64,000 nucleotides of DNA, taken from positions 310,001 to 374,000 of the forward strand of contig JAHHHM010000002.1 of assembly GCA_019359355.1 (NCBI GenBank), read 5' to 3'. Every line of letters begins with the position of its first letter. Within the stretch, counting starts at the first letter, position 1. The notes beneath the pieces were generated by a model that saw only the letters and a program-made list of their open reading frames with translations, was not told the DNA's origin and did no database searches. The stretch is from Microcoleus vaginatus WJT46-NPBG5 (GTDB lineage: Bacteria > Cyanobacteriota > Cyanobacteriia > Cyanobacteriales > Oscillatoriaceae). Shown here in pieces: positions 3,397-48,096 of the stretch. A program made the translations under genes and the position numbers.

Positions 3397-3402
3397 ACTT
3401 CC

Positions 3403-6177: not shown

Positions 6178-6338
6178 CTTTGCAGGGTGAAATCAACCAA
6201 AAATAAACGATCAAACTGGCATGAAGCCCAGACGCAAAGAAAATGGCGGCTGTGGCAGGACAGGCACCCATCAAACTTAACTTTAGCTCAACAAGTGAGG
6301 TGGGCAATACCCACCGACTCTCTGAGAAAATCGGATTT

Positions 6339-7625
6339 CTACTTTGGCACGCCGGCAGTCAAAATTTCTTGCCCATTTGATGTTACTAAAACATCATCTT
6401 CTATGCGAATGCCAATGCCACGCCACCGGCTCTCAACTTCAGGTTGTCCTTCTGCCGGTTTAATATTGGGGTTAATATAAATTCCCGGTTCAACGGTTAG
6501 CACTTGTCCGGGTTGCAATATTTGCGCCTGATCCCCATGCTGATAAACACCGGCATCATGGACATCTAACCCCAACCAATGTCCTGTGCGGTGCATATAA
6601 AAGGGTTTGTATTTCTCCTCTTTGATAATTTCCTCAATATCGCCATCTAGTAATCCCAATTCCATCAATCCTTCTACGATCACTCGCACGGCGGCATCGT
6701 GCATTTGGTTCCAAGGATTGCCCGGTTTAACTTGCTCCATTGCTTGCGATTGTGCTTCTAATACAATTTCATAAATTGCCTTTTGTTCGGGGGTGAATTT
6801 GCCGCTGACCGGAAATGTGCGGGTAATATCAGCGTTGTAGTAACCGTAAGCGCAGCCGGCATCTATGAGGAGTAAATCGTTCTCTTGTAGCTGCCGGTTA
6901 TTCTCGATATAATGCAGAACACACGCATTTTCTCCTGAAGCAACAATGGAGGGATAAGCCGGCCCGTTGCCACCCCGCAAGCGAAAAATGTGTTCCATTT
7001 CTGCCTGAATTTCGTATTCATAGCGTCCCGGTTTTGCAATTTCTCGTGCATAGTTATGCGCTTCAATTGAAATTACCGCAGCTTTTCGCATCAAATCTAA
7101 TTCTGCAGGGCTTTTAATTTGCCGCATTGCGTGTAAAATCGGGCTGGTGTCTTCAATCGCAATTGGCCCTTTTCCGCGCTTGGGATACATCCCCATGAAG
7201 CGCTGCCAGTGTTTAAGAATGGTTTCATTAAAACCGCGATCTCGCCCTAAACGATAATAAATTCTGTCTGAATTTTGTATATACTTAGGCAGGTTTTCCT
7301 CTAATTCTGCGATGGGATATGCCTCATCCGCGCCATAAAGTTCTTTTGCGCCTTCGACGCCGGCACGATATCCCGTCCATATTTCTTTCTCCGGATCTTT
7401 CGCTTGTACGAATAGCACAAACTTGTGTTCTTCGTGATGAGGGGCTAAAACTAAAACGGCTTCCGGTTCATTAAACCCTGTTAAATAGAAAAAATCACTT
7501 TCCTGCCGGTAAACATATTCCACATCATTGTGCATCACGGCTGTTGGTGCACTGCGAAAGATTGCGGTGCCGGTGCCTATCTTCGCCATCAACTGCTCAC
7601 GACGCTGCCGGTATTCTGCTTGCAT
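6339..7625 (-). CDS. pepP: Xaa-Pro aminopeptidase (aminopeptidase P, M24B)
   Basis: This 428-residue cytosolic metallopeptidase removes an N-terminal residue that precedes proline. The N-terminal half is the creatinase/AMP_N-type domain. The C-terminal pita-bread domain carries the dinuclear metal ligands: LLIDAGCAY and NADITRTFP (two aspartates, near residues 254 and 265), HRTGHWLGLDVHD (histidine near 345-355), LTVEPGIYI (glutamate) and RIEDDVLV (glutamate). Length and order match bacterial PepP. The start is ATG at 7623-7625; the next gene upstream is divergent with about 125 bases between, so this gene probably has its own promoter there. Confidence 0.92.
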   Translation of the reverse strand: MQAEYRQRREQLMAKIGTGTAIFRSAPTAVMHNDVEYVYRQESDFFYLTGFNEPEAVLVLAPHHEEHKFVLFVQAKDPEKEIWTGYRAGVEGAKELYGADEAYPIAELEENLPKYIQNSDRIYYRLGRDRGFNETILKHWQRFMGMYPKRGKGPIAIEDTSPILHAMRQIKSPAELDLMRKAAVISIEAHNYAREIAKPGRYEYEIQAEMEHIFRLRGGNGPAYPSIVASGENACVLHYIENNRQLQENDLLLIDAGCAYGYYNADITRTFPVSGKFTPEQKAIYEIVLEAQSQAMEQVKPGNPWNQMHDAAVRVIVEGLMELGLLDGDIEEIIKEEKYKPFYMHRTGHWLGLDVHDAGVYQHGDQAQILQPGQVLTVEPGIYINPNIKPAEGQPEVESRWRGIGIRIEDDVLVTSNGQEILTAGVPK

Positions 7626-7750
7626 AACAACTCATATTTTTCAACTTCTTGTGATATCTTAACCTTTGTATCGCCTTAAATAAGACAGGTAATTAAAAAA
7701 TTGCCAAGGCTTGATAGAATTTTATTTTCCCTTTCTTTACAAATGTCCTA

Positions 7751-9019
7751 ATGGCTCAACCCGTAGCAGCACCCTCTGCCGCACAATTTCAAAATAACTC
7801 TAATCACTTAGATGCACTTCAAGCGCTTCGAGGATTTGCTTGTTTAGCTATTGTAGTTTTTCATTGTGCTGCGCCTAGAAATGCGATTATTTATAAAAAT
7901 TATGATTTTAGTTGGCTATTATTTAGCCACGGGATTGTAGCGGTTTGGATTTTTTTTGGGATTTCTGGGTACTTGATGGGGAAAGTTTTTTATACAGAGC
8001 GTTACACTACAGATGTTTCTGGCGTACTAAGCTTTTGGCGCAACCGGCTGCTAAGAATTTGTCCACTTTATTATTTTGCCCTTTTAATTTCATGTATCTT
8101 TGTTTACCCAGTCATTCTTAAGTTAGAAAATTGGGGTTCTTTGGTAAGAATTTTAACGTTTACTTACAACCAAGTTTTACCGCCGGCAGACTTTAATATT
8201 ACTTTTTGGGCAATTTCCTCAGAAGTGCAATTTTACGTGATTGTGCCTTTTGTCTATAATTTATTTAGATACCGCTTGTTAAACAAAAAGCAAATTTTGC
8301 TAGCTGCCGGCGGCATTATTACTCTAGCCTTCTTTTTGAGGCTGGGAGTTTGGATCGCGTTAAAAGAATCCTTGCAAACAAAAAGTTTTTATTATTATAA
8401 ATATACTTACAATCCGCTTTTCACGAATTTAGATGTTTTTTTGCTAGGGTTTTTAGTCAATCCTTGGATTCACTGCCAAAAACAAGTCGGTTCCAATTTA
8501 TTAGTTTTACCTAAATTAAGAAAGAAATTGAGATTGGATCGATTACCGTTAAAAACGGTAGCCATTGGATTAATAATTTTCCTGTATTTATTTACCGCCC
8601 ATCATATTTACTTTCAAGAACTTTGGAGACTACCAGGGAGAGGCGGCGGAATTAGAACCTCTACCTTCTTTTTCGTGTTGCCGATTTTAACGGCTGCTAT
8701 CACCTCTTTTTTCATTTATGCCTTTGAATCTGGGAATTCTTACTGGACGTTTAAAAATAATGAAAAACTTTCATTTTACGCTTGCCTGAAAAATCCCTTA
8801 AGAATATTAGAAATTTTTGGTCATCTATCTTACGGGGTTTATATATGGCACACGCCTATTAATAAAAATATTGCCCCAATTTTTACCTCTGATCTTCCCA
8901 TAGAAGCATTTTATTCCAGATTAACGGCAACGCTCATTTTATCCACCATCCTTGCAGCAGTTACCTACTATCTCGTAGAAATTCCCGCCGGCAGACTAAA
9001 AACTTATAAAAAACCTTAA
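7751..9019 (+). CDS. Acyltransferase-3 family membrane protein, copy 1
   Basis: The 422-residue protein has about ten membrane segments and the acyltransferase-3 (OafA/ExoZ-like) hallmarks: LRGFACLAIVVFHC near residue 28 with the conserved histidine, FFGISGYLMGK near 75, SSEVQFYVIVPF near 157, and LSYGVYIWHTPI near the C-terminus. Such proteins transfer acetyl or other acyl groups to sugars of surface polysaccharides or other envelope molecules. The substrate is unknown. Immediately downstream, after an 8-base gap, lies a clear paralogue of the same size and order of motifs. The pair is AT-richer than its neighbours but still contains GCCGGC hexamers, so it does not look newly acquired. No glycosyltransferase genes flank it. 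Confidence 0.88.
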   Translation: MAQPVAAPSAAQFQNNSNHLDALQALRGFACLAIVVFHCAAPRNAIIYKNYDFSWLLFSHGIVAVWIFFGISGYLMGKVFYTERYTTDVSGVLSFWRNRLLRICPLYYFALLISCIFVYPVILKLENWGSLVRILTFTYNQVLPPADFNITFWAISSEVQFYVIVPFVYNLFRYRLLNKKQILLAAGGIITLAFFLRLGVWIALKESLQTKSFYYYKYTYNPLFTNLDVFLLGFLVNPWIHCQKQVGSNLLVLPKLRKKLRLDRLPLKTVAIGLIIFLYLFTAHHIYFQELWRLPGRGGGIRTSTFFFVLPILTAAITSFFIYAFESGNSYWTFKNNEKLSFYACLKNPLRILEIFGHLSYGVYIWHTPINKNIAPIFTSDLPIEAFYSRLTATLILSTILAAVTYYLVEIPAGRLKTYKKP

Positions 9020-25837: not shown

Positions 25838-26248
25838 TTCAACCGCTCAATTAAAGTTTAATGTACACTCACCCTTCATTCGTTTGGGATCGCACGGGGT
25901 TACCCTGTAGTGTAGATGCGTTGAGCATTAGTTCGTGACACGAGATAAATTTGAATAACCGGCACTGTTTTTTACAAATCTTGCCCACTCTCCTAGGCAG
26001 ATTTTTGAGTGGTTTGTGCTGAGTGGGAGACTAGGAAGGCTTACAAGAATAGGTTTTTTATAGAGTCTGCCGGCAGCGCTAAAGCGACAGGCTAAAACTT
26101 TCATATTTTTGTTGTCTGTTTCCTTCTCCCCCTTAATTTCCATAGAAAAAAGAAATAGATAGCAGGTGATAGGGTGCCGGCTCACGGAGAAGTTAGGCGA
26201 GTAGGCATTAAAATTTTAGGGTAATTGCATCTATCTTGAGATAGATTG
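25838..26248. other. Intergenic region before the large kinase-cyclase gene
   Basis: About 410 bases with no gene support and no clear hairpin or operator. It must hold the promoter of the 5.4-kb plus-strand gene that follows. A minus-strand frame of 85 codons here has no supporting features. Confidence 0.5.
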
Positions 26249-29200
26249 ATGATTCCTGACAGCAAAAAACCATTAAGTATGATCACCCTTGCCGGCATTT
26301 CCGTAACAGCACAAATCTATGAAAGTGCCAACTCCCTTGTCTATCGAGGCATTAGGGAGTCAGATCAACAACCCCTAATTCTCAAGGTTCTCAAGCAAGA
26401 TTATCCGACGCCGGCTGAACTCACTCGCTACCGCACAGAGTATCACCTGACAAAATCTCTAAATCTAGCAGGCGTTGTTAAGGTTGATGGCTTACAGAAA
26501 TATCAAAATACCCTAGTAATGTTTCTCGAAGATTTTGGTGGGAAATCTTTGAAGAGTTGGATGCAGGAATCCCCATTTACTTTAAAGGAATGTATTGAAA
26601 TTGCCATCGCTCTAGCAGACGCATTAGGACACATTCATGCAGCGAATATTATTCATAAAGATATTAACCCATCGAATGTAGTTTTAAACAAAGAAACCCA
26701 TCAATTAAAAATTATAGATTTTGGGATTTCTACCAAATTAACGCGGGAAATGCCGGTCTTAAAAAATCCTAATGTTTTAGAAGGTACTTTAGCTTATATG
26801 TCGCCGGAACAAACCGGCAGGATGAACCGGACTTTAGATTATCGCACAGATTTTTACTCGCTTGGAGTGACCTTTTACGAACTGCTGACGAATCAATTAC
26901 CCTTTGAAACGGATGATGCGCTGGAATTAGTTCACTACCATATTGCTAAGGTGCCGGTGTCGCCATCTGAGTTAAATCCAGAAATTCCCCCCATTCTCTC
27001 AGATATCGTCATGAAACTTTTAGCAAAAACGGCTGAAGAACGATATCAAAGTGCTTGGGGACTTAAAGCGGATTTAGAAGAATGTTTAAACCAGTTGAAT
27101 TTGACCCGGAAAATATCAAATTTTGAATTAGCCCGTGAAGACATTTATGATAAATTTCAACTGCCGCAAAAACTTTATGGAAGAGAACAAGAAATTGCCA
27201 CCTTATTAACCGCTTTTGAGCGGGTGACTCACGCCCAGAGCGAACTGATGCTCATTGCCGGCTATTCTGGCATTGGTAAATCAGTCTTAGTACAGGAGCT
27301 TTATAAACCCATTACTCAAAAGCGCGGCTATTTTATTTCCGGTAAATTCGACCAATATCAGCGCAATATTCCCTATAGCGCTCTTGTTATCGCTTTTCAA
27401 GAATTAATCAAAAACCTGTTAACTGAAAGTGAAGCGCAACTAAATCTATGGCGAGAAAAGTTATTAACAGCTTTGGGAATTAACGGGCAAGTCATTGCCG
27501 ATGTCATTCCAGAAATTGAATTAATTATCGGCAAGCAACCCCCTGTTCCAGAAGTCGGGCCAAATGAATCTCAAAATCGGTTTAATTTAGTTTTTCAAAA
27601 CTTTATTAAAGTCTTTACGCAACCTGAACATCCCTTAGCATTATTTATCGATGATTTGCAGTGGGCAGATGGCGCATCGTTAAAATTAATGCAGCGTTTA
27701 ATGAGTGCTGCCTCCCCTGGACTATTTTTAATCGGTGCCTATCGGGACAACGAAGTTTCCGCAGCACATCCGTTAATGTTAACTTTAGATGAAATTGCCA
27801 AAGCCGGCGCAAGTATCGAGCGCATTTTTCTATCACCATTAGACTTACCTACTATCACACACTTGATTGGCGATACGCTCAACTGTGAAGCAGAAAGGGT
27901 TCAGCCTTTGGCTGAGTTAGTGCTGTTTAAAACCGGCGGCAATCCCTTCTTTATGAATGAATTTTTAAAATCACTATATACAGAAGAATTGTTAAAGTTT
28001 GAGATTAAAAGTCGCCAGTGGCAGTGGAGTTTAGAGCAAATTCAATCGCGCGGCTTCACCGATAACGTCGTTGAACTTATGGCAGACAAAATTCAAAAGC
28101 TGCCAGAAAATACGCAAGATTTATTAAAGCAAGCTGCCTGTATGGGCAATCAATTTAACTTAAATACCCTTGCTTTGATTGACGCTAAATCTTTACGAGA
28201 AACAGTTGACGATTTATATCCAGCCGTGGCTGAAAATTTAGTGGCTCCTATTGGCAATATGGGAGAAACAGAATTAGCAATTGATGCAACTGAATTAACC
28301 ACTCGCTCATTACCAACAGTCTCATCCCAATCCCTAGAATATAAATTTGTTCACGATAGAATTCAGCAGGCTGCTTATTCCCTCATTGCCGAACAAGATA
28401 AGCCTCTCATTCACCGTAATATCGGGCAACTGCTGCTGAAAAATATTCCTGAAAGTAACCGAGAACAAAAAATATTTGATATTGTTAATCAACTAAACTT
28501 TGGCATTCAACTAATCTCTAACCAGCAAGAAAGAAATGAACTCGCACAGTTAAACTTAGTTGCCGGCAAGAAAGCAAAATTATCCGCAGCCTATCAGCCG
28601 GCTTTAAATTATTTACAAATCGGCATCAACCTCTTAGCAACCAATTGCTGGCAGCAACAGTATGAACTCGCCCTGTCACTGCACACAGAAGCCGCTGAAG
28701 TTGCCTATCTCAACGCTGACTTTGTTTTAATAAAAACATTTTTTGATGCAGTCGTGTCACAAGCAAAAACAGTCTTGGACACAGTGAAAGTGTATGAGGT
28801 GAAAATTTTAGTAGAGACTGTACAAAGCAAGTTTAGTGAAGCCATCAATATTGGACTAGAAGTGTTAAGTCTACTGGGAGTAAAGTTGCCTAAACAACCT
28901 AACAAAGTAGATGTTTTAAGGGGACTGCTGCAAACAAAATTTAGGATCGGGTTTAAATCAGTTGCCAGCTTAGTGGACTTGCCGGTGATGAGTGATCCTT
29001 ACGCAAAAGCAGCGATGCGTATCCTCACAAGAATTGCCCCCGCAACCTACTTTGCCGCACCGCTTTTATTGCCAGTTATTGTGTTTCAACAAATTTACTT
29101 ATCTATAAAGTGGGGAAACACGAGTGACTCTGCTTTTAGCTATAGTTTATATGGAATGATTCTATGTGGGGTTGTTGGGGATATTCAGAGTGGCAGTCAA

Positions 29201-31657
29201 TTTGGTCAACTCGCTCTTAATGTGATCTCCCGACTTGATGCAAGAGTTTTTAGAACCATGACGGGATATACCGTCTCTACCTTTATCAGACACTGGGTAG
29301 AGCCTCTCAAGGAAGTAGTAAATTTACAGCGGGAAGTTTACACGTTTGGACTGCAAACAGGAGATTTGCAATTTAGTAGCTACGCAATGCACGTCTACTG
29401 CTCCATGAGCTTTCTGAGCGGCTCGGAATTGGTGAAATTGGAACCAGAGATGGAGATTTATGCTCAGAATCTGCGTCAAATGGGACAAGAAACAGCTTTT
29501 AATATGCAAGACGTAGTGCATCAAGCTGTTTTGAATTTGCTAAGTGAAATTGAAAATCCTTGTAATTTAATTGGCAAAGCTTTCGACGAGCAGGTGATGC
29601 TACCAAGACTAAACAGCCAAAATGATCGCACCACACTGGGTATTTTTTACTTGAATAAATTGATGCTTTGCATTATATTTTGTGAGTTAAAGTTGGCAAT
29701 TGAAAATGCTGACTTAGGTGAACAATACCTTGATGCCAACACATCTACTTGCACAGTTGTTCACTTCTATTTTTATGAATCTTTAGCGCGTCTAGCCGTG
29801 GCAAAAAATGCTCATCAGCCAGAGCAAAATCGCCAAATAAAGAAGATCATTAGCAACCAGAAAAAGATGAAAAAATGGGCACATCATGCCCCAGCTAATA
29901 ACTTGCATAAATATTATCTAGTAGAGGCTGAATTTTGTCGAATTCGGGGAAAATATGCTTTAGCCACAGAATTTTATGATCGCGCGATTTCCCTTGCGAA
30001 AGAACACGAATACATCCACGAAGCCGCTCTCGCTTACGAACTTGCTGCCAAGTTTTATTTATCTCGAGGGAAAGAATTAACAGCCAAAGCTTATATGCAA
30101 GAAGCTCGTTACTGCTATCAACTTTGGGGAGCATCTGCTAAAGTTAAGCATTTAGAAATGCGATACGGCAGCTTATTGGCTGCAAATCAAGGGAGTAGTC
30201 AAAATACTAAAGCGACTACAACAAAAACGACCACCGGCTCAAAACACAGTCTTGATATCGGCACAGTGATGAAGGCTTCTCAGGCAATTTCAGGTGAAAT
30301 TGTGCTGGATAAGTTACTGTCTAGCTTGATGAAAATTTTGATTGAAAATGCCGGAGCGCAAAAAGGCTATCTTATTTTAGAAGAACGGGGAAACCTGCTG
30401 ATTGAAGCGGAAGGCTCAATCGATTCGGAGCAGGTGAACGTACTTGAATCAATATTGGTTGAGGACTTTAAAAATGCTTCTCAATCCATTATTAATTATG
30501 TCTGTCGCACACAAGAAAGTGTAGTTTTGAATGATGCGGCTCGTGAGGGTCAATTTACTAATGATCAGTATATCCAAGAACATCAGCCGAAATCGGTTCT
30601 CTGCGTACCGCTGATTAATCAAGGGAAACTGGTGAGTATTGTTTATCTGGAAAATAATCTCACAGCCGGCGCGTTTACTGCTGAACGAGTGGAAGTGATT
30701 AAATTATTATCCTCTCAAGCGGCAGTTTCTATAGAAAATGCTAAGCTTTATACCGAAGTGAGGAAAAATGAGACTAGGCTTGCTCAACTTAATTTCGATT
30801 TAGAACAAGCTTTAGAAGCTGAATTAGAACTTTCTAAAGCAGCGAGTCGCTTTGTTCCTAATCAATTTTTATCTTTTCTGGGTTATCAAAAGCTGACAGA
30901 AACAAAATTAGGAGATTCTGTCCAATTAGAAATGTCAATTTTGTTTTCTGATATTCGAGATTTTACAACGCTTTCTGAGCAAATGACCCCAGAGAAAAAT
31001 TTTAAATTTATTAACTCCTATTTAAGCCGGATGGAACCGGCAATTATTGAAAATCATGGTTTTATTGATAAATATATCGGGGATGCGATTATGGCATTAT
31101 TTAGTGGCGAGGCAGATAATGCCGTGAAAGCCGGCATTTCGATGCTGCACCGACTTGCTGAATATAATCAACTTCGCACCCATTCTGGTTATCCTCCCAT
31201 TCAAATTGGAATTGGCATCAACACCGGCACCTTAATGTTAGGAACCGTTGGCGGACAAAATCGCATGGATAGCACCGTGATTAGTGATGCGGTAAATTTA
31301 GCTTCTCGCGTAGAAGGTTTAACCAAAAATTATGGCTTGCCCTTATTAATTACTCAACAAACTTATGAACGATTGACGAAGCCGGCAGACTATGCAATTC
31401 GCACCATTGACACCGTAAAAGTTAAAGGCAAATCCCAAGCCGTCACAGTTTATGAAATCTTTGAAGCTGATCCACCGGCACTCAAAAACGGAAAATTAAA
31501 TACCCTACAATCATTTACAGAAGCCCTAGCGCTCTACAATCTAAAACAATTTAACAATGCGGCGCGACTATTTGACGATTGTCTGCGCCTCAATCCAGGC
31601 GATCAAGTCGCTCAAATTTATCGACAACGCTGCTATGAGAATCACCGCGAAAGATAG
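26249..31657 (+). CDS. Multidomain Ser/Thr kinase-AAA ATPase-GAF-adenylate cyclase
   Basis: An 1802-residue cytosolic signalling protein. Order: protein kinase (about 10-285; LKVLKQD lysine, HKDINPSN near 137 with the catalytic aspartate, IIDFGIS, APE-like SPEQTG), AAA_16 ATPase (LYGREQEI, Walker A AGYSGIGKS near 337, Walker B LFIDDLQWADG near 468), a long helical TPR-like region (about 650-1330), GAF (about 1335-1510) and a class III cyclase (1555-1740) with FSDIRDF metal aspartates near 1565, DKYIGDAIMA and NLASR. The K in DKYIGD and downstream D/T pattern favour ATP, so cAMP is the likely product. A C-terminal TPR-like tail follows. Kinase, ATPase and cyclase residues all look intact. Start: ATG at 26249, one codon after a TTG. 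Cyanobacterial relatives usually end in a histidine kinase instead. Confidence 0.88.
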   Translation: MIPDSKKPLSMITLAGISVTAQIYESANSLVYRGIRESDQQPLILKVLKQDYPTPAELTRYRTEYHLTKSLNLAGVVKVDGLQKYQNTLVMFLEDFGGKSLKSWMQESPFTLKECIEIAIALADALGHIHAANIIHKDINPSNVVLNKETHQLKIIDFGISTKLTREMPVLKNPNVLEGTLAYMSPEQTGRMNRTLDYRTDFYSLGVTFYELLTNQLPFETDDALELVHYHIAKVPVSPSELNPEIPPILSDIVMKLLAKTAEERYQSAWGLKADLEECLNQLNLTRKISNFELAREDIYDKFQLPQKLYGREQEIATLLTAFERVTHAQSELMLIAGYSGIGKSVLVQELYKPITQKRGYFISGKFDQYQRNIPYSALVIAFQELIKNLLTESEAQLNLWREKLLTALGINGQVIADVIPEIELIIGKQPPVPEVGPNESQNRFNLVFQNFIKVFTQPEHPLALFIDDLQWADGASLKLMQRLMSAASPGLFLIGAYRDNEVSAAHPLMLTLDEIAKAGASIERIFLSPLDLPTITHLIGDTLNCEAERVQPLAELVLFKTGGNPFFMNEFLKSLYTEELLKFEIKSRQWQWSLEQIQSRGFTDNVVELMADKIQKLPENTQDLLKQAACMGNQFNLNTLALIDAKSLRETVDDLYPAVAENLVAPIGNMGETELAIDATELTTRSLPTVSSQSLEYKFVHDRIQQAAYSLIAEQDKPLIHRNIGQLLLKNIPESNREQKIFDIVNQLNFGIQLISNQQERNELAQLNLVAGKKAKLSAAYQPALNYLQIGINLLATNCWQQQYELALSLHTEAAEVAYLNADFVLIKTFFDAVVSQAKTVLDTVKVYEVKILVETVQSKFSEAINIGLEVLSLLGVKLPKQPNKVDVLRGLLQTKFRIGFKSVASLVDLPVMSDPYAKAAMRILTRIAPATYFAAPLLLPVIVFQQIYLSIKWGNTSDSAFSYSLYGMILCGVVGDIQSGSQFGQLALNVISRLDARVFRTMTGYTVSTFIRHWVEPLKEVVNLQREVYTFGLQTGDLQFSSYAMHVYCSMSFLSGSELVKLEPEMEIYAQNLRQMGQETAFNMQDVVHQAVLNLLSEIENPCNLIGKAFDEQVMLPRLNSQNDRTTLGIFYLNKLMLCIIFCELKLAIENADLGEQYLDANTSTCTVVHFYFYESLARLAVAKNAHQPEQNRQIKKIISNQKKMKKWAHHAPANNLHKYYLVEAEFCRIRGKYALATEFYDRAISLAKEHEYIHEAALAYELAAKFYLSRGKELTAKAYMQEARYCYQLWGASAKVKHLEMRYGSLLAANQGSSQNTKATTTKTTTGSKHSLDIGTVMKASQAISGEIVLDKLLSSLMKILIENAGAQKGYLILEERGNLLIEAEGSIDSEQVNVLESILVEDFKNASQSIINYVCRTQESVVLNDAAREGQFTNDQYIQEHQPKSVLCVPLINQGKLVSIVYLENNLTAGAFTAERVEVIKLLSSQAAVSIENAKLYTEVRKNETRLAQLNFDLEQALEAELELSKAASRFVPNQFLSFLGYQKLTETKLGDSVQLEMSILFSDIRDFTTLSEQMTPEKNFKFINSYLSRMEPAIIENHGFIDKYIGDAIMALFSGEADNAVKAGISMLHRLAEYNQLRTHSGYPPIQIGIGINTGTLMLGTVGGQNRMDSTVISDAVNLASRVEGLTKNYGLPLLITQQTYERLTKPADYAIRTIDTVKVKGKSQAVTVYEIFEADPPALKNGKLNTLQSFTEALALYNLKQFNNAARLFDDCLRLNPGDQVAQIYRQRCYENHRER

Positions 31658-39813: not shown

Positions 39814-40734
39814 GTGAATTTTTCAACAGAAGATTTTGACGAACGTGAATCAGTTCTAGATGCAACTAGCCTGCCTTTAGTTAAAGACGATATAACGAGC
39901 GTTGCCGAGCTTGATTTTGTCGATCCAGCGACGGGAAGACATTCCCTGGATATACTCTATGAACAGTTTGCCAAACCTCAACTCAGCACCGCACTCAAAC
40001 CTAACGAGCCTTCAATTTATATCAGACATCTAGAAGGCCAGGAAATCACTGGAGGATACATTATTGAAAAAGTGTTTGAAGATGCTCAGACAGGTTTTTA
40101 TGCTGAGGGTCGAGTTCCACTTTCTGGAACAAATCCGCCGGTTCTGGTTATCCGGGGATACGGCTCATGGTATCCTTTCGAGGGCGTGCTAGAAGATACC
40201 CCAGATGTTTTCATGGCCGGCATGGAACGGCATTTTAAATCCGCTGAAACTCATGGGGCTGTTGATTGGCTGAAGCAACAATCTGAAGCCGGAAATCAGC
40301 CAGACGTCATTGGAGAAAGCTTAGGCGGAAAAGTTGCTCAACAAATCGCAGTAAAGTACCCGGATTTCATTCGCTCAACCGTTACGTTTAACTCTCTTGG
40401 TGTGTCCCAAAAATTAGCAGAAACATCCCAAGCAAAAAATGTTTTCCACTACTTTACATTGGGAGAAAAGTATGCATATTGGGCAAATAGAGGAGAGTAT
40501 ATACCGGGTCAATTTTTCCAAATTTCCAAAAACGGAAGAAGCTGCCGGTATAAAATAGAAGAAGCTGTAATTGGGATGGGAAGATTTCGGAGTCCTGCCA
40601 GATTTCATCCGAAAGGTCGCCACAGAAAAATGATTTTGATAGTTTTAGCCCAATTAATTTTATTAACCCGGCACAATGAACTCATTTTAAATAGACGAGC
40701 GCCGGTGGTCATTAAAATAGAGCGCTACCCATAA
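39814..40734 (+). CDS. Alpha/beta hydrolase-fold protein (lipase-like)
   Basis: The 306-residue protein starts at GTG 39814 (AAAGGAATT upstream). The middle has PPVLVIRGYGSW and the nucleophile elbow GESLGGKVAQQIA (serine near residue 170), typical of lipases/esterases, with a final RHNELILN that may supply the histidine. The N-terminal 60 residues are acidic and no signal peptide is seen. The C-terminal part is unusually basic (SPARFHPKGRHRK) and ends abruptly, so a change of frame near residue 245 is possible though not proven. Substrate unknown. Confidence 0.7.
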   Translation: MNFSTEDFDERESVLDATSLPLVKDDITSVAELDFVDPATGRHSLDILYEQFAKPQLSTALKPNEPSIYIRHLEGQEITGGYIIEKVFEDAQTGFYAEGRVPLSGTNPPVLVIRGYGSWYPFEGVLEDTPDVFMAGMERHFKSAETHGAVDWLKQQSEAGNQPDVIGESLGGKVAQQIAVKYPDFIRSTVTFNSLGVSQKLAETSQAKNVFHYFTLGEKYAYWANRGEYIPGQFFQISKNGRSCRYKIEEAVIGMGRFRSPARFHPKGRHRKMILIVLAQLILLTRHNELILNRRAPVVIKIERYP

Positions 40735-40827: not shown

Positions 40828-43179
40828 TTAAGGAATGCCGGTGCGTCCAGCCAGACTCGCCACGACAGTCGCTAATTCCGCCGGCTCCACAGGTTTAGGG
40901 ATGTGCATTTGAAATCCGGCAGCAATTGCTCGCATCCTATCCTCAGCCCTAGCGTATGCGGTTAGGGCAATCGCAGGAATTTGCCCCCCTTGCTCTGCAG
41001 AGAGTGCCCGTACTTTACGGATCAAAGAGTAGCCATCTTCTTCAGGCATCCCAATATCGCTTAATAGAACATCTGGTTTAAGAAGCTTGATGTCTTCAAT
41101 GGCTAAATCAGCCGAGGCAACGGCACGCACAGAAGCCCCGCACTGTTGCAGAACCGTAGTGAGAAACACACGCGAATCAACTTCATCGTCCACGACAAGT
41201 ATTTGTAACCCATCTAGCGACGGTGGATTGTTAAATCCTACTCCCCTTCCCGCCCTTGGGTGAATTCGTTCTGGCTGGGTTGTCTCTAAGCGGACAGGCA
41301 TAAGAGGAAGCGTTACGATAAATGCCGATCCCTGTCCCTCCCCTTGACTCTCTGCACGAACTGTCCCGCCGTGCAATTCCACCAAATTGCGGACAATCGC
41401 CAGACCAAGACCAAGTCCACTGTATGTCCGGGTAATCGAGCTATCCGCTTGCCGAAAGCGTTCAAAGACGAATGGCACAAAGTCAGGGCTGATGCCAACA
41501 CCTGTATCGGTTACCGTGATTTCAACCTGGGAGTTGACTTGTTCAAGGCGAACTTGGACGCGTCCTTCTTTGGGTGTGAACTTAATCGCATTAGATAACA
41601 AATTCCAAACGATCTGCTGCAAGCGGTCTGAGTCACCGGCAACCGGCCCGGCTGCCGGATCGAGTAGGCTTTGGAGTTGAATCGCCTTAGCATCAGCCGC
41701 TGGGCGAACCGTATCAAGCGCTGCCTCAACAACCAAAGCAAGCTCAACTGGACGAACATTCAGGCGCAATTTACCCTGAATAATGCGGGAAACATCCAGC
41801 AAATCCTCCACCAGCTGAGCTTGTGCCCTAGCACTGCGTTCAATTGTCTCCATCGCCCGCGCAGTCGTCGCCTCGTCAAATTTGCGGCTCTTGAGTAATT
41901 GAATCCAGCCCAGCATTGCGTTGAGAGGTGATCGCAGTTCGTGAGATAGCGTTGCTAAAAACTCATCCTTCATCCGGTTTGCTGACTCCGCAGCAGCGCG
42001 TGCCTCCTGTTCCGAAACCAGTAGTTGGTTGCGTTCGTCTTCAGCTTGCTTGCGCTGCGTAAAGTCGCGCATGAGTTTAGCAAAGCCGCGTAGTTGCCCA
42101 GCCTGATCTTGTAAGGGCGTTACGATGCCACTCCCCCAGAAACGAGTGCCGTCCTTCCGTACGTGCCAGCGTTCGTCTTCCGCCCGACCTTCTTTGACTG
42201 CCGTTTCCAGTTCTTGCTTATCTGCCCCGGACGCTAGGTCTTCAGGCGTATACATAATTGAGCCAGATTGACCCAACATTTCGGCTTCCTGATACCCTAA
42301 AATGCGCTCTGCCCCTACACTCCAACGAATAACACGCCCGTCTGGATCGAGGAAGAAAATTGCGTAGTCCTCTACATTTTCTAATAACAAGCGAAACCGT
42401 TCTTCACTGGTTCGCAGCGCTTCTGATGCCCACTTGCGATCTGTAATGTCAGCAACAATATAAACCGCACCCGTGAAAATTCCAGCCTCATTGAACACGG
42501 GATCTGTAGTTACAGAAAACCATCGTTCCCCACACTTTAACTCCTCGCTCTCCCGGCTACGAGTCTCCTGAACACGAGTTAAGGGAGTAACCTCAACGCA
42601 GCCCAGGATATTTTGCATTAGCTCCTGATAAAAGCAACCCTCGATCTGTGCGAACGGTTTTCTCAGAAGATTCCTCATGGCGCTGTTAGAGCGCAAGATT
42701 CTGCCCAAACGATCTAGTAAACAAACACCATCGCTCATGGCATCGAATGTCGTTTGCCACTCCTTCGCCAAAGCCAGTGCCGAGTCTTCAGCCTCGCGGA
42801 TACGAAGCAGAGCTTTTACAGTTGCGAGCAACTCGATTGGCTCCACCGGCTGGGCTAGATAGCCATCTGCACCACTCTCTAACCCTTGTACCTTGTCCTT
42901 ACTCTCGACAAAACTAGCAGACAGATGCAGTACGGGAATAGAGGAAGTGGCAGGATTTGCCTTGAGTCGGTGGCAAACTTCAAATCCATTAATCCCTGGA
43001 AGCCGCACGTCAAGGATAATTAAGTCGGGCGGCTGCTGCGTGACCATTTGCAGAGCTGTTTCGCCGGTGGCAGCTTCTTGAACCTCAAACCCCGCTTTCC
43101 GAAGCATCCGATTAATGACATAGCGGTTGGTTTCGTTGTCGTCTACGTGCAAGATCGTGACAAGGGTGCTATTAGACAT
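40828..43179 (-). CDS. Hybrid histidine kinase REC-PAS-PAS-HisKA-HATPase-REC
   Basis: A 783-residue soluble protein: receiver 1 (8-125; ILDVRLP aspartate near 56), PAS (about 145-260), PAS (about 272-395, SEERFRLLLENVEDY), HisKA with LSHELRSPLNAML near 415, HATPase with LLSNAIKFTP, DTGVGIS and GLGLGLAI, and receiver 2 (about 655-770; LLSDIGMP). It has no membrane segment. Its start overlaps the end of the upstream kinase gene by eight bases, showing tight co-translation as the last gene of the stressosome operon. Phosphate probably flows within and between the two hybrid kinases; no DNA-binding output is present in the cluster. Confidence 0.9.
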   Translation of the reverse strand: MSNSTLVTILHVDDNETNRYVINRMLRKAGFEVQEAATGETALQMVTQQPPDLIILDVRLPGINGFEVCHRLKANPATSSIPVLHLSASFVESKDKVQGLESGADGYLAQPVEPIELLATVKALLRIREAEDSALALAKEWQTTFDAMSDGVCLLDRLGRILRSNSAMRNLLRKPFAQIEGCFYQELMQNILGCVEVTPLTRVQETRSRESEELKCGERWFSVTTDPVFNEAGIFTGAVYIVADITDRKWASEALRTSEERFRLLLENVEDYAIFFLDPDGRVIRWSVGAERILGYQEAEMLGQSGSIMYTPEDLASGADKQELETAVKEGRAEDERWHVRKDGTRFWGSGIVTPLQDQAGQLRGFAKLMRDFTQRKQAEDERNQLLVSEQEARAAAESANRMKDEFLATLSHELRSPLNAMLGWIQLLKSRKFDEATTARAMETIERSARAQAQLVEDLLDVSRIIQGKLRLNVRPVELALVVEAALDTVRPAADAKAIQLQSLLDPAAGPVAGDSDRLQQIVWNLLSNAIKFTPKEGRVQVRLEQVNSQVEITVTDTGVGISPDFVPFVFERFRQADSSITRTYSGLGLGLAIVRNLVELHGGTVRAESQGEGQGSAFIVTLPLMPVRLETTQPERIHPRAGRGVGFNNPPSLDGLQILVVDDEVDSRVFLTTVLQQCGASVRAVASADLAIEDIKLLKPDVLLSDIGMPEEDGYSLIRKVRALSAEQGGQIPAIALTAYARAEDRMRAIAAGFQMHIPKPVEPAELATVVASLAGRTGIP

Positions 43180-45355
43180 GATCTTCCTCTCCGGCCTCCA
43201 AGACTAGCCCAGCTAAAAGCAGTGCTTCTCGCACAAGAGAGGTCGCGACTTCACGCGATAGGTTTTCTTTTGAGAGAATGGCTACTGTTTTTCCTACAAG
43301 GAGCGAGCGCTCCTGTGGTTCAAGAACCTTTGAAGTATGAATAATTACGGGAATATTTGTAGTCGCTGGATCGGCTTTTAGCTGTTCCAAAACCTCGAAC
43401 CCGCTCATACCGGGCATAACTAAGTCGAGAAAAATGCAAGAAGGATTTTCGAGGCCGGCATAACGGATGCCTTCGATCCCTGAAGTGGCCTCAATGATCT
43501 TCAAATCAAACTTATTTTCCCCAGGGGCAGCACCCTTACCATCGCCTAAATATTGCTTGAGTAGATAGTGGAATACTGGATCATCGTCTACAATCAAAAC
43601 TTTTTGCAAATGCGCTTGCCTGACTAAAGAATTAAGTTTCTCGATAAGCGATAATCGTTCCACTGGTTTAACAAAGAAGGCATCAGCGCCTAATGTGAGA
43701 GCTTTCTTGTCGTTGTCAATAACGGTAATGACGATAATCGGAATCTCTCGTGTTGAAGGGTTTGCTTTCATCTCAGAAAGAAGATCCCAGGTATTTTGCT
43801 CCTCAAGCAAGATGTCTAATAGCACAGCTCGTGGCTTAAACTTTTGAAAAGCTTGTTTTACTTGCTTGAGTGATCGTGCTGGAATCATCTGATAAATAGA
43901 CTCTGCAAAATATTTCTCGTAGATGAAGAGCGTCTCTGGGTTATCTTCTACAACTAATAGCGGATAGCGAGTTGCATCTAACTGTAAAGGAACATCAATT
44001 TCATCTGCCGGCTCTATCTCACTTCTGTAAACAATGGGTATAGTGGCAAAAAACGTAGATCCAAGCCCTTTCGAGCTTTTGATCGAAACACTGCCTCCCA
44101 GTAATTCCGCTAATTTACGCGAAAGCGGCAGTCCTAGACCTGTTCCTTTCACCCGCTTTTGAAGGTAAGAATTCACCTGAATAAATTCCTCAAAGATTCG
44201 CTCGGTATCTTCAGGGGCAATACCAATACCTGTATCAGTTACAGAGAAAACAACGGTATTGTTATGTAGTTCTGCTCTGATGCGAACTTCACCTTTTTCG
44301 GTATATTTCAAGGCATTAGAAATAAAATTTCTTAAAATTTGGCCAACCTTGCCCTCATCGGTGCGGAGCGTGGGAAAGCCAATGGGTTCTTCAAAAACCA
44401 GAGAAATTGAGGAATTATCACTTAGAAGCGGGCGCAGCATCCCTCTGAGAGCCGCGAATAAATCGCTGACTTCAAACTCATTGGGATGAACCACAATTTT
44501 TCCTGCCTCGACCTTTGCCAAGTCTAAAAGGTCGTTTACTAACTCCGAGAGACCTTCAGCAGATTGACGGATAAATGTTACTTGCTTTTCTTGATCGGGG
44601 GTCAATTCACCGTCCATCCGATCCAGCAGCAGTCTGGAAAGGGACATAATCGAGTTCAGCGGCGTGCGAAACTCATGGCTCATATTCGAGAGGAAGCGAG
44701 TTTTGAGTTCATTGGCTCGCTGTAGGGAAACTGCTTTTTCGTCTAACTCGGCATATAATGCCACAACACCCCGATTGGTATCCTCTAACTCACGATTGAC
44801 CTGGGCCAACTCGGCTTGACGCTTTTCGAGTTCTGCTAGTGTGCGAAGCAGTTCTTGGTTTTGTTGCTGAATTTCCTCAAATGGGCTTTGAGGCGATTTC
44901 ATGATCAACTCATCAAGAATCTGCGCCAAGCGCGTTGCTGTCAAAATGGGTGCCGATTTCGGCAAGGTTTTTCCCATCAACACTTCGGTTCCTTGCCCTA
45001 GCGTTGAGGTAATGTGAAATTGATCCATCAGCCGCTTGGTGCCGGTGATGCCTAAGCCCATGCCGGTTTTAGATTTATACTGCCCATCCAAAATGGTCTT
45101 GAGATCGGCGATACCCGACCCTTGATCCCGAATGCATACCCGCAAACTCTGGGGCAATTCGCCTTCCACCCGAAATTCAACTTTTCCCCCACCGGCATAT
45201 TGGAAGGCGTTACGGGCAATTTCAGATACAGCAGTGGCAATGCGCGTCTGATCCTGAGCGTCAAACCCCAAAGCTTGAGCAATCTGCCGTGCCCGCTGAC
45301 GGATCATCACGACATCTTGCTCGTAGCGTACTTCTACAGTGAGGAGATTGGTCAT
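43172..45355 (-). CDS. RsbT-like ATPase fused to hybrid histidine kinase (HisKA-HATPase-REC-REC)
   Basis: The 727-residue protein begins with an RsbT/RsbW-like ATPase domain (about 1-135: VVMIRQRARQIA, TAVSEIARNAFQYAGGGKV, DQGSGIADL, GMGLGITGTKRLMD), very like the separate RsbT upstream. A coiled coil (about 160-215) leads to HisKA (MSHEFRTPLNSIM near 235), HATPase (about 330-450), then two receivers (ILLEEQ near 520, with LLDILL; and FLDLVMPG near 645). The fused RsbT-like domain offers a direct path from the stressosome to a phosphorelay: release of RsbT could be replaced by docking of this domain. It lies 73 bases after the phosphatase gene and overlaps the next kinase. Confidence 0.9.
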   Translation of the reverse strand: MTNLLTVEVRYEQDVVMIRQRARQIAQALGFDAQDQTRIATAVSEIARNAFQYAGGGKVEFRVEGELPQSLRVCIRDQGSGIADLKTILDGQYKSKTGMGLGITGTKRLMDQFHITSTLGQGTEVLMGKTLPKSAPILTATRLAQILDELIMKSPQSPFEEIQQQNQELLRTLAELEKRQAELAQVNRELEDTNRGVVALYAELDEKAVSLQRANELKTRFLSNMSHEFRTPLNSIMSLSRLLLDRMDGELTPDQEKQVTFIRQSAEGLSELVNDLLDLAKVEAGKIVVHPNEFEVSDLFAALRGMLRPLLSDNSSISLVFEEPIGFPTLRTDEGKVGQILRNFISNALKYTEKGEVRIRAELHNNTVVFSVTDTGIGIAPEDTERIFEEFIQVNSYLQKRVKGTGLGLPLSRKLAELLGGSVSIKSSKGLGSTFFATIPIVYRSEIEPADEIDVPLQLDATRYPLLVVEDNPETLFIYEKYFAESIYQMIPARSLKQVKQAFQKFKPRAVLLDILLEEQNTWDLLSEMKANPSTREIPIIVITVIDNDKKALTLGADAFFVKPVERLSLIEKLNSLVRQAHLQKVLIVDDDPVFHYLLKQYLGDGKGAAPGENKFDLKIIEATSGIEGIRYAGLENPSCIFLDLVMPGMSGFEVLEQLKADPATTNIPVIIHTSKVLEPQERSLLVGKTVAILSKENLSREVATSLVREALLLAGLVLEAGEEDHV

Positions 45356-45428
45356 TGGTCAATTGCTAATAGAAGGATTGCTAATGGCTAATTGTTCATT
45401 AGCCCTTACTGCTGTACTTCTTTGCCCT

Positions 45429-46436
45429 TCAGCTTTCTTCGCGAGCAACCAGCACAGTTACGTCATCGCGACCTCGGGAGAAATCTCGGTACAAAACTCC
45501 AGCGATCAGGCTGGGATGTCTGGTTATAAGACCAGGATAGCGATCCAAACGCCACTGTGTACTCAACCCATCGGAATGCATCACCAAAAGCCCTCCTTTC
45601 GGCCACTGGTAGACAAATTCCTGAATCTTACGCACCTCATGCCCCACAGTACCGTTGTGGGAAACCATGCTGTAGCTGCCTTCGGGAAAAAAAACGCAGC
45701 TAGAGATATTTCCAATGCCGGCAAAACGAACAACTTGGCGTTCAAAATCCACTTCGGTGATCGCTAAAGCGGCTCCACGAGTGCTCCGCAAAGCCGTGTG
45801 AGCCGCTTCAATAATCTCTTTGGGACTTTTGCGGAGATTCTCTCGAAATATTCTTACCGCTTCTAAGGACGCCTGGGCAGCTAAAGGGCCATGACCCAAA
45901 CCATCTGCGACTAATAGCAGACTGCGACCGGCCTGTTGGTCGATTGCCCACGCATCACCCGGCACCTCCTCCCCTCTGATCGGCAGGCAGACGACCCCAA
46001 TCTCTAGATTGTTTTTCGACTGCTGCACCGGCGTTGGACTAGCCCAGAGGTGGCTTAATAACGCTGTCCCCACCTTGGGAGTTGAATGAATGTCCAAAAA
46101 AGCAGAAAGCCGGCTAATTGCCCCCAAACCATTTCCCGGAGTGCCGGCGGTAGAAAACCCGTCGCGCATACATTCCTGAATATCCCGAATTCCCGGCCCT
46201 TTGTCTAAGGCGAGGATTTCCATCCCCGTTATGTCGTTTTTGGTTGAAGCCTGGAGCAGCAGCAGACCGTCTTTAGCGTGCAGAACTAGGTTATTTGCAA
46301 CCTCAGTAACGACAATACCAACCTGCCCCCGCTCAGTTTCGTTGAAGCCGAGACGAGTGGCAATTGCCATCGCTATCCGTCGCGCTTCACCAACCTGACT
46401 AGACTCTACAATGGGCAAGGCAACGGCAGCGTTCAT
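45429..46436 (-). CDS. RsbW-like ATPase plus RsbX/SpoIIE-type phosphatase
   Basis: From ATG 46434-46436 the protein has 335 residues. Residues 1-130 form an anti-sigma-type ATPase domain (VVTEVANNLVLHAKDG, DKGPGIRDI, GNGLGAISRLS). Residues about 145-335 are a PP2C-type SpoIIE/RsbX domain with LLVADGLGHGPLA, ALAITEVD, GNISSCVFF, MHSDGLSTQW and GRDDVTVLVA, all acidic metal ligands being present. In Bacillus RsbX removes phosphate from RsbS and RsbR and resets the stressosome, the likely job here. A longer frame overlaps rsbT; the chosen start is 8 bases after the rsbT stop. Confidence 0.9.
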   Translation of the reverse strand: MNAAVALPIVESSQVGEARRIAMAIATRLGFNETERGQVGIVVTEVANNLVLHAKDGLLLLQASTKNDITGMEILALDKGPGIRDIQECMRDGFSTAGTPGNGLGAISRLSAFLDIHSTPKVGTALLSHLWASPTPVQQSKNNLEIGVVCLPIRGEEVPGDAWAIDQQAGRSLLLVADGLGHGPLAAQASLEAVRIFRENLRKSPKEIIEAAHTALRSTRGAALAITEVDFERQVVRFAGIGNISSCVFFPEGSYSMVSHNGTVGHEVRKIQEFVYQWPKGGLLVMHSDGLSTQWRLDRYPGLITRHPSLIAGVLYRDFSRGRDDVTVLVAREES

Positions 46437-46443
46437 AATTAAC

Positions 46444-46824
46444 TCATTTCCACTTTGTAATCGTAATCTTTGTGCCCTCGCCGACATGAGAAACGATATT
46501 AAATTCGTTTACCAGTCGCTTTGTCCCACTTAATCCCATACCCAGTCCGCCGCCGGTTGTGAAGCCATCTTTGAGGGCTAGATCAATATCCGCAATTCCT
46601 GGCCCAGTGTCTTCAAAAGTCAGTCGCAGACCCCGACGCATTCCCGCCTCTAGGGCTTCGAGTTTGACAATCCCGCCACCGCCATAGTCTAGCGTGTTGC
46701 GTGCCAGCTCACTTGCCGCCGTTACGATCTTCGTCTGATCTACCAAGCTAAAACTCAGTTCTATCGCAAACTGACGCACGGCTTGCCGGATGAGCACAAC
46801 GTCTGCGGCGGACTGGATGCTCAT
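46444..46824 (-). CDS. rsbT: RsbT-type serine kinase (stressosome)
   Basis: A 126-residue ATPase/kinase: VVLIRQAVRQFAIELSF, ASELARNTLDYGGGGIV (N-box), EDTGPGIADID and GLGMGLSGTKRLVNEF (ATP lid). RsbT phosphorylates RsbS and RsbR and is then freed to act on a partner. ATG at 46822-46824 is five bases after the rsbS stop; another ATG eight codons upstream would overlap rsbS by 20 bases. It is the third gene of the rsbR-rsbS-rsbT order. Confidence 0.92.
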   Translation of the reverse strand: MSIQSAADVVLIRQAVRQFAIELSFSLVDQTKIVTAASELARNTLDYGGGGIVKLEALEAGMRRGLRLTFEDTGPGIADIDLALKDGFTTGGGLGMGLSGTKRLVNEFNIVSHVGEGTKITITKWK

Positions 46825-46828
46825 CGTT

Positions 46829-47224
46829 TCAGACCTCTGCAAGACCATCTATGCTCCCCCCAGGAGAAGCCTCCAACGATTTACGCAGGAGCACCATTCC
46901 CTTTTCAACGTTTAAAGCTGTGCGAATGCCGGTTAAGGAAAGTCCCAACTCTACCAAAGTAATGGCGACTGCCGGCTGCATTCCGACAACGACTGTTTCA
47001 GCATCAAGTACACGCGACATCTTGGCAATATTTCCCAATATTCGTCCAATAAAAGAATCAACGATTTCCAACGCTGAAATATCTATTAGCACACCCCGGG
47101 CACTTGTTCGGTTAATGCGGTCGGTTAGGTCGTCTTGCAAAGCGATCGCTAGGCGATCGTGCATATCGACCTGAATCGTCACCAGAAGGAATTCGCCCAT
47201 CTGTAATATAGGAATACGTTCCAT
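46829..47224 (-). CDS. rsbS: RsbS-type STAS protein (stressosome)
   Basis: The 131-residue single STAS-domain protein starts MERIPILQMGEFLLVTIQ. The phosphorylatable serine is S57 in DISALEIVDSFIGR, the position of the known RsbS site. RsbS and RsbR build the stressosome shell that holds RsbT until stress. It lies eight bases after rsbR and is followed directly by rsbT. Confidence 0.93.
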   Translation of the reverse strand: MERIPILQMGEFLLVTIQVDMHDRLAIALQDDLTDRINRTSARGVLIDISALEIVDSFIGRILGNIAKMSRVLDAETVVVGMQPAVAITLVELGLSLTGIRTALNVEKGMVLLRKSLEASPGGSIDGLAEV

Positions 47225-47232
47225 AACACTCC

Positions 47233-48096
47233 TTAATGTGTTTGGACGCGAGATATCTTGGCTCCAGTTCGCTTCAGCGCCAAAGCAAATGCGTCGGATA
47301 GGGAAGCCTTGGTGATCACATCAGCCAGATCCACGCCCAAGTAGACAATCGTTTGAGCAATCTGAGGCCGAATCCCGCTCAGGATGCAATCAGCGCCCAT
47401 CAGACGCGCCGCAGTGACGGTCTTGAGTAGGTGCTGAGCTGTGAGAGTATCAACGGTTGGCACGCCGGTAATATCGATGATGGCGACTTCCGAACCCGTC
47501 TCTACAATTTTCTGCAACAGGGACTCCATCATCACTTGGGTGCGGGCACTATCGAGGGTGCCAATGATGGGGAGGGCTAAAATGCCGTCCCACAGTTTCA
47601 CAACCGGCGTTGACAGTTCCATCAGTTCTTGTTGCTGGCGCATGATTACTTCTTCGCGCGCTTTCTGATAGCTCTCAGTTGTCCAGAGGCCAAGCTTGTC
47701 TAAAAGCGTAGTCACCGACCAAATCTCTTCGAGAAGGCTTTCGCTATCCTGTGCAAGTTCTACGCGCAACCGACTGAACAAAGGTTGCTTCAAAGAAAAA
47801 ACAAACGTTGCGGTTTCTGATGGTGTGAAGCCTTTATGGCCGCGGGATCGCGAAATTGAGCTAAGCATCTCGCGCGTGCTGCGCCACTCAGGCGATTCAA
47901 TGTCGGTGAAGTTACCCTCGTGAGTTGCCACTGCTAACAGCTCAAGGAATTCCCTACACTCTTCCCGCAGTTCTGTCTCTCTAATTAGGTCTTTGCGGAT
48001 ACCTATATATGCTTGCTCAGAGAGCCAATCTGCCAACAGTTGGGCTTGATTAGTTTTAATAATCTCTGAAATTTTACTTTTGCCGCTCAGGTTCAT
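47233..48096 (-). CDS. rsbR: RsbR-type stressosome sensor
   Basis: A 287-residue protein with an N-terminal RsbRD-like helical domain (about 8-150; QLLADWLSEQ, GFTPSETATFVFSLKQPL) and a C-terminal STAS domain (about 165-280; LWDGILALPIIGTLDSAR, IIDITGVPTVDT). T217 in VDT aligns with the RsbS serine and is the expected phospho-threonine. The N-terminal domain is not a globin; its signal is unknown. It is the first gene of the apparent six-gene stressosome operon, with the promoter presumably in the 338 bases before it. Confidence 0.92.
   Translation of the reverse strand: MNLSGKSKISEIIKTNQAQLLADWLSEQAYIGIRKDLIRETELREECREFLELLAVATHEGNFTDIESPEWRSTREMLSSISRSRGHKGFTPSETATFVFSLKQPLFSRLRVELAQDSESLLEEIWSVTTLLDKLGLWTTESYQKAREEVIMRQQQELMELSTPVVKLWDGILALPIIGTLDSARTQVMMESLLQKIVETGSEVAIIDITGVPTVDTLTAQHLLKTVTAARLMGADCILSGIRPQIAQTIVYLGVDLADVITKASLSDAFALALKRTGAKISRVQTH

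Follow-up and report, generated by a model that had tools for sequence, protein, structure and literature searches.

Genes and domains of the locus

In a 64,000-nucleotide stretch of Microcoleus vaginatus WJT46-NPBG5 (contig JAHHHM010000002.1, positions 310,001 to 374,000; GenBank assembly GCA_019359355.1, 6.46 Mb in 44 contigs), hereafter the window, six collinear open reading frames (ORFs) on the minus strand occupy window positions 40828 to 48096. They encode, in order, the stressosome proteins RsbR, RsbS and RsbT, a phosphatase fusion (X) and two hybrid histidine kinases (H1 and H2). A preliminary description of this DNA had proposed the same order with short gaps or overlaps, which the ORF coordinates and Pfam bear out. 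By their coordinates, RsbR and RsbS are separated by 8 bp and RsbS overlaps RsbT by 20 bp. RsbT overlaps the longest X ORF by 44 bp, or is followed by a 7-bp gap if the ATG at 46436 is used; 73 bp lie between X and H1, and H1 and H2 overlap by 8 bp. Because this order is kept in many genomes, a chance arrangement is implausible.

RsbR (47233 to 48096; 287 residues) consists of a sensor-type N-terminal domain, identified by Pfam as RsbRD_N (PF14361) and not globin, and a STAS domain. It matches full-length RsbR chains in the PDB (9o3o, 9o4r, 7b0u and others), with T217 aligned to T209 of the solved chains. A second putative phosphosite, S183, which the preliminary description had not named, aligns with position 175. 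Three deposited RsbR sequences have T, A or E there, a pattern we read as a putative phosphosite and its mutants. RsbS (46829 to 47224; 131 residues), the STAS scaffold, matches solved RsbS chains 6qcm (E 4e-33) and 6jhk (E 3.5e-30), from Listeria and Bacillus, respectively. Its putative phosphosite S57 aligns with the Ser of the solved RsbS chains, which is Ala in the deposited variant 9o4r. Across related loci, the two switch residues claimed earlier hold up well: S57 is kept in 106/107 rows and T217 in 106/107, with one Ser, while S183 is kept in 107/107 (rows include the window and are not de-duplicated; there are four identical pairs among the 111 H1 rows).

RsbT (46444 to 46848; 134 residues) is a stand-alone GHKL serine/threonine kinase (Pfam HATPase_c/HATPase_c_2). 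In the PDB it matches only SpoIIAB at E 0.001, and its membership of the RsbT family rests on Pfam and the tree described below. X (45429 to 46487) is 352 residues long as annotated and more likely 335 from the ATG at 46436, the length of the ORF in a relative (L032). It joins an RsbT-family GHKL domain to an RsbX-type PP2C phosphatase (Pfam HATPase_c_2 and SpoIIE) and matches 3zt9 and the RsbX structure 3w40. The four phosphatase Asp residues are kept in 111/111 rows, and the N, G1 and G2 motif residues in all three RsbT-type families (RsbT, the X ATPase and the H1 head), in agreement with the complete phosphatase ligands and RsbT ATP site described earlier.

H1 (43172 to 45355; 727 residues) carries HATPase_c_2, HisKA, HATPase_c and two receiver (REC) domains, and H2 (40828 to 43179; 783 residues) has the order REC, PAS, PAS, HisKA, HATPase_c, REC. 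By Pfam, none of the six genes codes for a DNA-binding domain or for any other kind of terminal output. The preliminary description had called the locus a stressosome core wired to hybrid kinases instead of a sigma factor, with no sigB, rsbV, rsbW or rsbU. For the window this stands, in that a complete core lies beside two hybrid kinases and no local sigma-factor branch is present: a Pfam scan of 36 of the 41 window ORFs of at least 150 residues found no sigma factor, no SpoIIE domain outside X and no rsbU-rsbV-rsbW-sigB genes adjoining the RsbR-RsbS-RsbT (RST) core, and the contig holds no further RsbW-like (PF13581, over cut-off) or STAS (PF01740) match. "Instead" is apt for the window and less so for the genome, as RsbW-like, STAS and SpoIIE genes, that is, other partner-switching genes, are present on other contigs; no genome-wide sigma factor search was made. 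A scan for promoter and terminator consensus sequences was at or below chance (for promoters, 4 found versus 7.9 expected).

Three RsbT-family domains in one operon

The H1 head (residues 1 to 135; 44951 to 45355) is a GHKL domain 43% identical to the RsbT of the operon. Searched with RsbT at E 0.001, the whole genome gave three places only: RsbT itself, then the H1 head at 98.4 bits, and then the X ATPase at 41.6 bits and 28% identity. The H1 head is thus the best RsbT match in the genome after RsbT, and at least five separate RsbW-like genes over the PF13581 cut-off were unmatched by the same query. In a maximum-likelihood tree (71 chosen rows and 138 columns, few for that number of rows, with bootstrap not settled), RsbT, the H1 head and the X ATPase form three groups, which are split from five RsbW-like domains of this genome (100/100); labels change three times in the tree, as seldom as four groups allow. 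On this sequence evidence, the three domains are paralogues of common descent. Because each group has rows from several phyla, the tree fits one origin per type before the copies spread, and spread of the whole operon between phyla is also possible. The RsbT group is not one clade. Beside the X ATPase fall two short stand-alone proteins that may represent the state before fusion; one is the second RsbT (T') of locus L054, where the order is R, S, T, T', X, kinase.

For an AlphaFold model of the H1 head and linker (pLDDT 87, pTM 0.73, from a 13-sequence alignment), the nine best Foldseek matches are SpoIIAB and RsbW, several of them solved with STAS partners; histidine-kinase CA domains rank lower. 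The conserved linker (residues 136 to 214; 44714 to 44950) is modelled with one helix of 54 residues, 158 to 211, running towards HisKA. Its motif, ELEDTNRGVVALYAELDEKA, shows roughly the same conservation as the head and is presumably a signalling helix. The transmitter (residues 215 to 450; 44006 to 44713) comprises HisKA, with H227, and HATPase_c; its His, N-box Asn and G1 Asp are kept in 112/112 rows. RsbU_N (PF08673) has no match in H1, whose N-terminal domain is HATPase_c_2 by Pfam. We ruled out a frameshift artefact as the source of the fusion, as the 111 head rows include 107 distinct sequences. The earlier label "RsbT-like hybrid kinase" fits the H1 head, although no consequence had been drawn from it; on sequence evidence, the head is the most likely physical link between stressosome and kinase.

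Distribution of the module and its output side

The six-gene order recurs widely among cyanobacteria and is also present in records from several other phyla and on the megaplasmid of Deinococcus radiodurans R1; this answers, and extends beyond cyanobacteria, the proposal to check its conservation. Among 60 genomes, that of the window included, 15 have a head-type match and 14 the fusion. In a sample of 386 genomes from the phylum of the window there are 16 head matches and 13 fusions; the 13 genomes with a close RsbS are exactly the fusion carriers, and RsbS of any degree occurs in 15, the two others (G094 and G097) having RST without the fusion. The module is thus found in a minority of sampled genomes. 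A genome-contig scan, of which the best 80 of 175 confirmed stretches were considered, so that proportions are biased to relatives of the window, returned mostly cyanobacteria (Nostoc, Scytonema, Brasilonema, Microcoleus, Leptolyngbya and others). The other records among these 80 are from Deltaproteobacteria (L082, L118), Rokuibacteriota (L095, L119), Spirochaetes (L116), Gammaproteobacteria (L130) and Desulforhopalus vacuolatus (L133). In the phylum of L130, an RsbT-type match (E 1e-15) occurs in 40/398 genomes and a head-plus-linker match in nine (partial in G539); in that of L133 the corresponding counts are 11/297 and four (both phyla inferred from the record titles). Plasmid records from Caballeronia and D. 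radiodurans R1 also carry the fusion. A fusion restricted to cyanobacteria is ruled out by these records from other phyla and plasmids, and viral contigs yielded no relative of the H1 head.

Among 113 fusion loci, 102 include at least 4 kb of upstream sequence, and in 97 of these, matches to the RsbR STAS domain, RsbS, RsbT, the X ATPase and the PP2C domain all lie within 5.5 kb upstream of the fusion. The locus samples overlap in four identical pairs, without which RsbR, RsbS, RsbT/ATPase and phosphatase matches are upstream in 93/98; the RsbT test in these counts is weak because RsbT, the X ATPase and the H1 head cross-match, and RsbT ORFs were read from locus maps. Since the association recurs in several phyla, it is very likely that the core and the two hybrid kinases are functionally coupled.

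The five loci without the full upstream set are L043 and L044, from one genus of the family of the window, L110 and L123, from Rhizonema, and L185. L044 has only fragments of RsbR, RsbS and X, and L110 a core reduced to a fragment; both keep H1-H2. In L043 (genome G003), where the retained genes lie at 2609 to 8200, a Ser/Thr kinase with a periplasmic-binding-type domain is found directly upstream of them. Rhizonema are lichen symbionts, and in a further locus of the genus, L098, X is split over two frames with H1/H2 kept; in L110, L123 and L098 the module is apparently decaying. L185 is of another kind. At 5018 to 7521, and likewise in L199, RsbR and an RsbT-headed kinase form a divergent pair on their own, and RsbS, RsbT and RsbX are absent alongside. 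The two genomes concerned, G718 and G1334, are near-identical, carry the full module elsewhere and are the only two of 250 genomes of their order with this satellite. L054 presents yet another variant, with a kinase at the operon position of H1 that carries RsbU_N and no RsbT head.

On the output side, the N-terminal receiver of H2 (REC1; residues 1 to 135; 42775 to 43179) is conserved: 94 of the 113 fusion loci contain a match to it, at any position within the locus, with an identity of 36% or more. What follows REC1 varies. In cyanobacterial loci with H2 it is PAS-kinase-REC, in Desulforhopalus GGDEF, in a Spirochaetes metagenome-assembled genome PAS-PAS-HisKA_2, and in L181, L182 and Deinococcus a short HisKA-HATPase; a short REC-kinase also follows H1 in Pseudomonadota-type loci. 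Because REC1 is kept while the domains downstream change, it is likely, judging from sequence, to be the conserved next step after H1. The phospho-Asp (D57) is kept in 94/94 rows, a count made with the two rows excluded below still included. At Q110, where the usual Lys sits, 88 distinct sequences have Gln in 78 (74 by pattern and four by eye from printed strings), His in five, Glu in three, Ala in one, Leu in one and Lys in none; these rows have at least 38% identity to REC1 of the window, a threshold that could hide diverged receivers with Lys, and of the 93 H2 rows, L041 and L110 were excluded before the count because they are fragments of H1 receivers. To our knowledge, this Lys is nearly universal in receivers. 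The other receivers of the operon keep it in 80/80 rows for H1 REC1, 86/86 for H1 REC2 and 80/89 for H2 REC2.

In Microcoleus-type loci (L037, L038, L047 to L049, L093, L120, L122, L124, L128, L129, L136 and L137), H1 is only 512 to 531 residues long and ends in a short, varied stub resembling a first receiver strand; its receiver seems to have been lost.

Some further observations concern the surroundings. A 306-residue ORF without Pfam match (39814 to 40734, plus strand) is convergent with the operon, and an 1803-residue protein with Ser/Thr kinase, AAA_16, GAF and guanylate/adenylate cyclase domains is encoded at 26246 to 31657 (plus strand). In locus L190, elsewhere in the same genome (G000, contig C41), a minus-strand gene at 5110 to 6108 joins STAS to a bacterial sugar transferase domain (PF02397). 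Its neighbours encode an RsbW-like kinase and a SpoIIE phosphatase with PAS/GAF; there, partner switching may act directly on exopolysaccharide synthesis.

A docking model and its alternatives

The arrangement of RST and RsbX genes (RSTX) with two-component genes is in itself ordinary and already published. For modules with globin-type RsbR, Heinz et al. (2022, PMC9237108) distinguish eleven kinds of genes downstream of RSTX, HisKA/REC phosphorelays among them, and they mention cyanobacteria; this is in line with the preliminary claim, and with the loci found here, that RST precedes two-component genes in other phyla. Two-component outputs of stressosomes and kinases with RsbU_N also appear in parts of PMC10014275 and PMC12143880. 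Where these sources describe stressosome-linked kinases, the kinases carry RsbU_N, the domain bound by RsbT (PMC12143880, PMC9237108). Section 10 of Heinz et al. (PMC9237108) reports that most of the downstream proteins considered there showed no RsbU_N and that an interaction between Vibrio vulnificus RsbT and the downstream kinase was not positive. The RSTX-D1-D2 locus of V. vulnificus resembles the window in that two-component genes follow RSTX with no sigB (parts of PMC9237108 and PMC10014275); it differs in its globin-type RsbR and single-domain PP2C RsbX, RsbU_N is not reported in its downstream proteins, and its output is thought to be c-di-GMP. Proteobacterial RsbU_N kinases in RST operons, like that of L054, occupy the same operon position as H1 (passages of PMC12143880 and PMC9237108), except that they carry the target domain of RsbT and H1 carries the RsbT domain itself. 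Moorella thermoacetica, too, has a SigB-less stressosome driving another output, there an RsbU_N-GGDEF diguanylate cyclase and not a kinase with an RsbT head (as cited in PMC12143880); in the Desulforhopalus variant found here, a REC-GGDEF protein lies downstream of an RsbT-headed kinase. Compared with the sigB operon of Bacillus subtilis and Listeria, the window has homologues of RsbR, RsbS, RsbT and RsbX with conserved phosphosites, but RsbU, RsbV, RsbW and SigB were not found in it, and its RsbX has an extra RsbT-family domain.

What is probably new is the RsbT head on a kinase, together with the conserved receiver without Lys. The literature searched, which did not extend to some primary papers and so does not establish absence from print, yielded no RsbT-headed kinase and no cyanobacterial or Deinococcus stressosome with such an output; the passages bearing on this in PMC4976288, PMC8256260, PMC7522486 and PMC7358398 contain no RsbT-headed kinase, and the last credits stressosomes in cyanobacteria and the Deinococcus group to Pane-Farre (2005).

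We favor, with some confidence, a reading in which the six genes form one signalling unit, H1 docks through its RsbT head and STAS phosphorylation frees a phosphorelay. RsbR, as sensor, and RsbS would form a putative stressosome shell on which RsbT docks, phosphorylating S57 of RsbS and S183/T217 of RsbR under stress. X would reach the STAS surface that RsbT uses through an RsbT-family domain of its own and would reset these three sites. H1 would be the output kinase, its head docking on the surface used by RsbT, which would make it a stressosome client like RsbT in Bacillus, without an RsbU_N adaptor. Phosphorylation of the STAS sites would release or rearrange H1, and the state of the head would pass along the helical linker to HisKA. 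Phosphoryl groups would then reach the two receivers of H1 and the N-terminal receiver of H2, whose kinase would relay the signal to a target encoded outside the operon. We suggest docking because the head is an RsbT paralogue with its ATP-site motifs kept, because the RsbX of this operon has a comparable head, because RsbU_N, the RsbT target, occupies the same position in L054, and because the G718/G1334 satellite pairs RsbR alone with an RsbT-headed kinase. More tentatively, and at somewhat less than even chances, the operon might represent a widespread, previously undescribed kind of stressosome output in which the kinase itself is a stressosome subunit tethered in cis by its RsbT head, with the three paralogues (RsbT, RsbX head and kinase head) competing for the same STAS sites, occupancy setting both feedback and output, and the signal leaving through an atypical Lys-less receiver whose C-terminal output has been swapped between phyla. 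H1 would then possibly be one chain with two GHKL kinases, one acting on Ser/Thr of STAS and the other on His of HisKA.

Several points weigh against the docking model. G003, a genome 99% complete, has H1-H2 and a truncated X with no RsbS (E 0.001) and no stand-alone RsbT (E 1e-8), and Rhizonema L123 shows no RSTX in the 7 kb upstream of H1-H2; H1-H2 thus outlast the core, at least for some time, and the idea that they always need RST is weakened. Stand-alone RsbT is kept beside most fusions, including 12 of the 14 fusion genomes in the 60-genome sample (not G003 or G007), so the head has not replaced it, and a GHKL domain, once fused, could have ceased to bind STAS or to act as a kinase. In the Microcoleus-type loci, H1 stops after its HATPase domain in the receiver-like stub with no H2/REC1 match, so a relay beyond H1 is not universal; lacking the usual Lys, REC1 may, on its sequence, be a docking or atypical receiver. 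A promoter may lie within the 73-bp X-H1 gap. Finally, we found no data on interaction, expression or phosphotransfer for this operon.

RsbT-family proteins dimerise, and the H1 head could bind stand-alone RsbT or sense ATP/ADP, in which case RsbT released from the stressosome would activate H1 as it does RsbU. The retention of RsbT beside most fusions fits this, as do published accounts in which Bacillus RsbT, once released, acts on the N-terminal domain of RsbU (a passage of PMC12143880) and RsbU_N kinases occur in RST operons (PMC12143880 and PMC9237108, in part; also L054). We nevertheless consider it unlikely, given that the head is a paralogue of RsbT and not its target domain, and that the satellite RsbR is paired with an RsbT-headed kinase that has no RsbT of its own, though a full module lies elsewhere in those genomes. 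Transient phosphorylation of H1 or H2 on Ser/Thr by RsbT, with the head a passive remnant, would follow a proposal made for the downstream kinase of Vibrio when an interaction could not be detected (PMC9237108, in part), but ATP-site motifs kept throughout the aligned H1 rows are unexpected for a remnant, and we regard this explanation as improbable. Least probable of all, by a small step, is that core and kinases are mere neighbours and H1-H2 independent. G003 and L123, which keep H1-H2 without RST, and L044 and L110, with core fragments only, are what such independence would produce, yet these losses are confined to one genus of the family of the window and to Rhizonema, and some leave fragments behind, which suggests decay. 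Moreover, the order is kept across several phyla and on a plasmid, and H1 bears an RsbT-family head.

The same six genes in the same order form the operon DR_RS15570 to DR_RS15595 on the MP1 megaplasmid of D. radiodurans R1, with identities to the window of 72% (RsbR STAS), 64% (RsbS), 64% (RsbT), 53% (H1 head) and 51% (H2 REC1). There, too, REC1 has no Lys, with His in its place; H1 has one receiver versus two in the window, and H2, unlike its window counterpart, is a short REC-HisKA-HATPase without PAS or a second REC. By gene order, in a mapping of old to new tags that is partly inferred, DR_B0026 is RsbT and DR_B0028 and DR_B0029 are the kinases. In the relevant passages, DR_B0028 was more abundant in vacuum recovery and is "thought to be co-regulated" with an antisigma-factor operon (PMC6501615, citing Makarova 2001), and DR_B0029 was more abundant after low-Earth-orbit exposure (p 0.046; PMC7597052). 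DR_B0026, named RsbT, is among oxidative-stress proteins, although quantitative reverse-transcription PCR disagreed (PMC7143949), and the part of PMC8363230 concerned only lists both kinases among receiver proteins. These are thin hints of a link to desiccation or oxidative stress.

At stake is how stressosomes signal in the many bacteria that lack SigB. If the docking model holds, the RsbT-headed kinase would answer this in direct physical terms for a sizeable set of genomes. As the same operon is present in D. radiodurans R1, a laboratory model of stress resistance, the model can be tested there. Should docking prove wrong, a conserved operon class has still been mapped.

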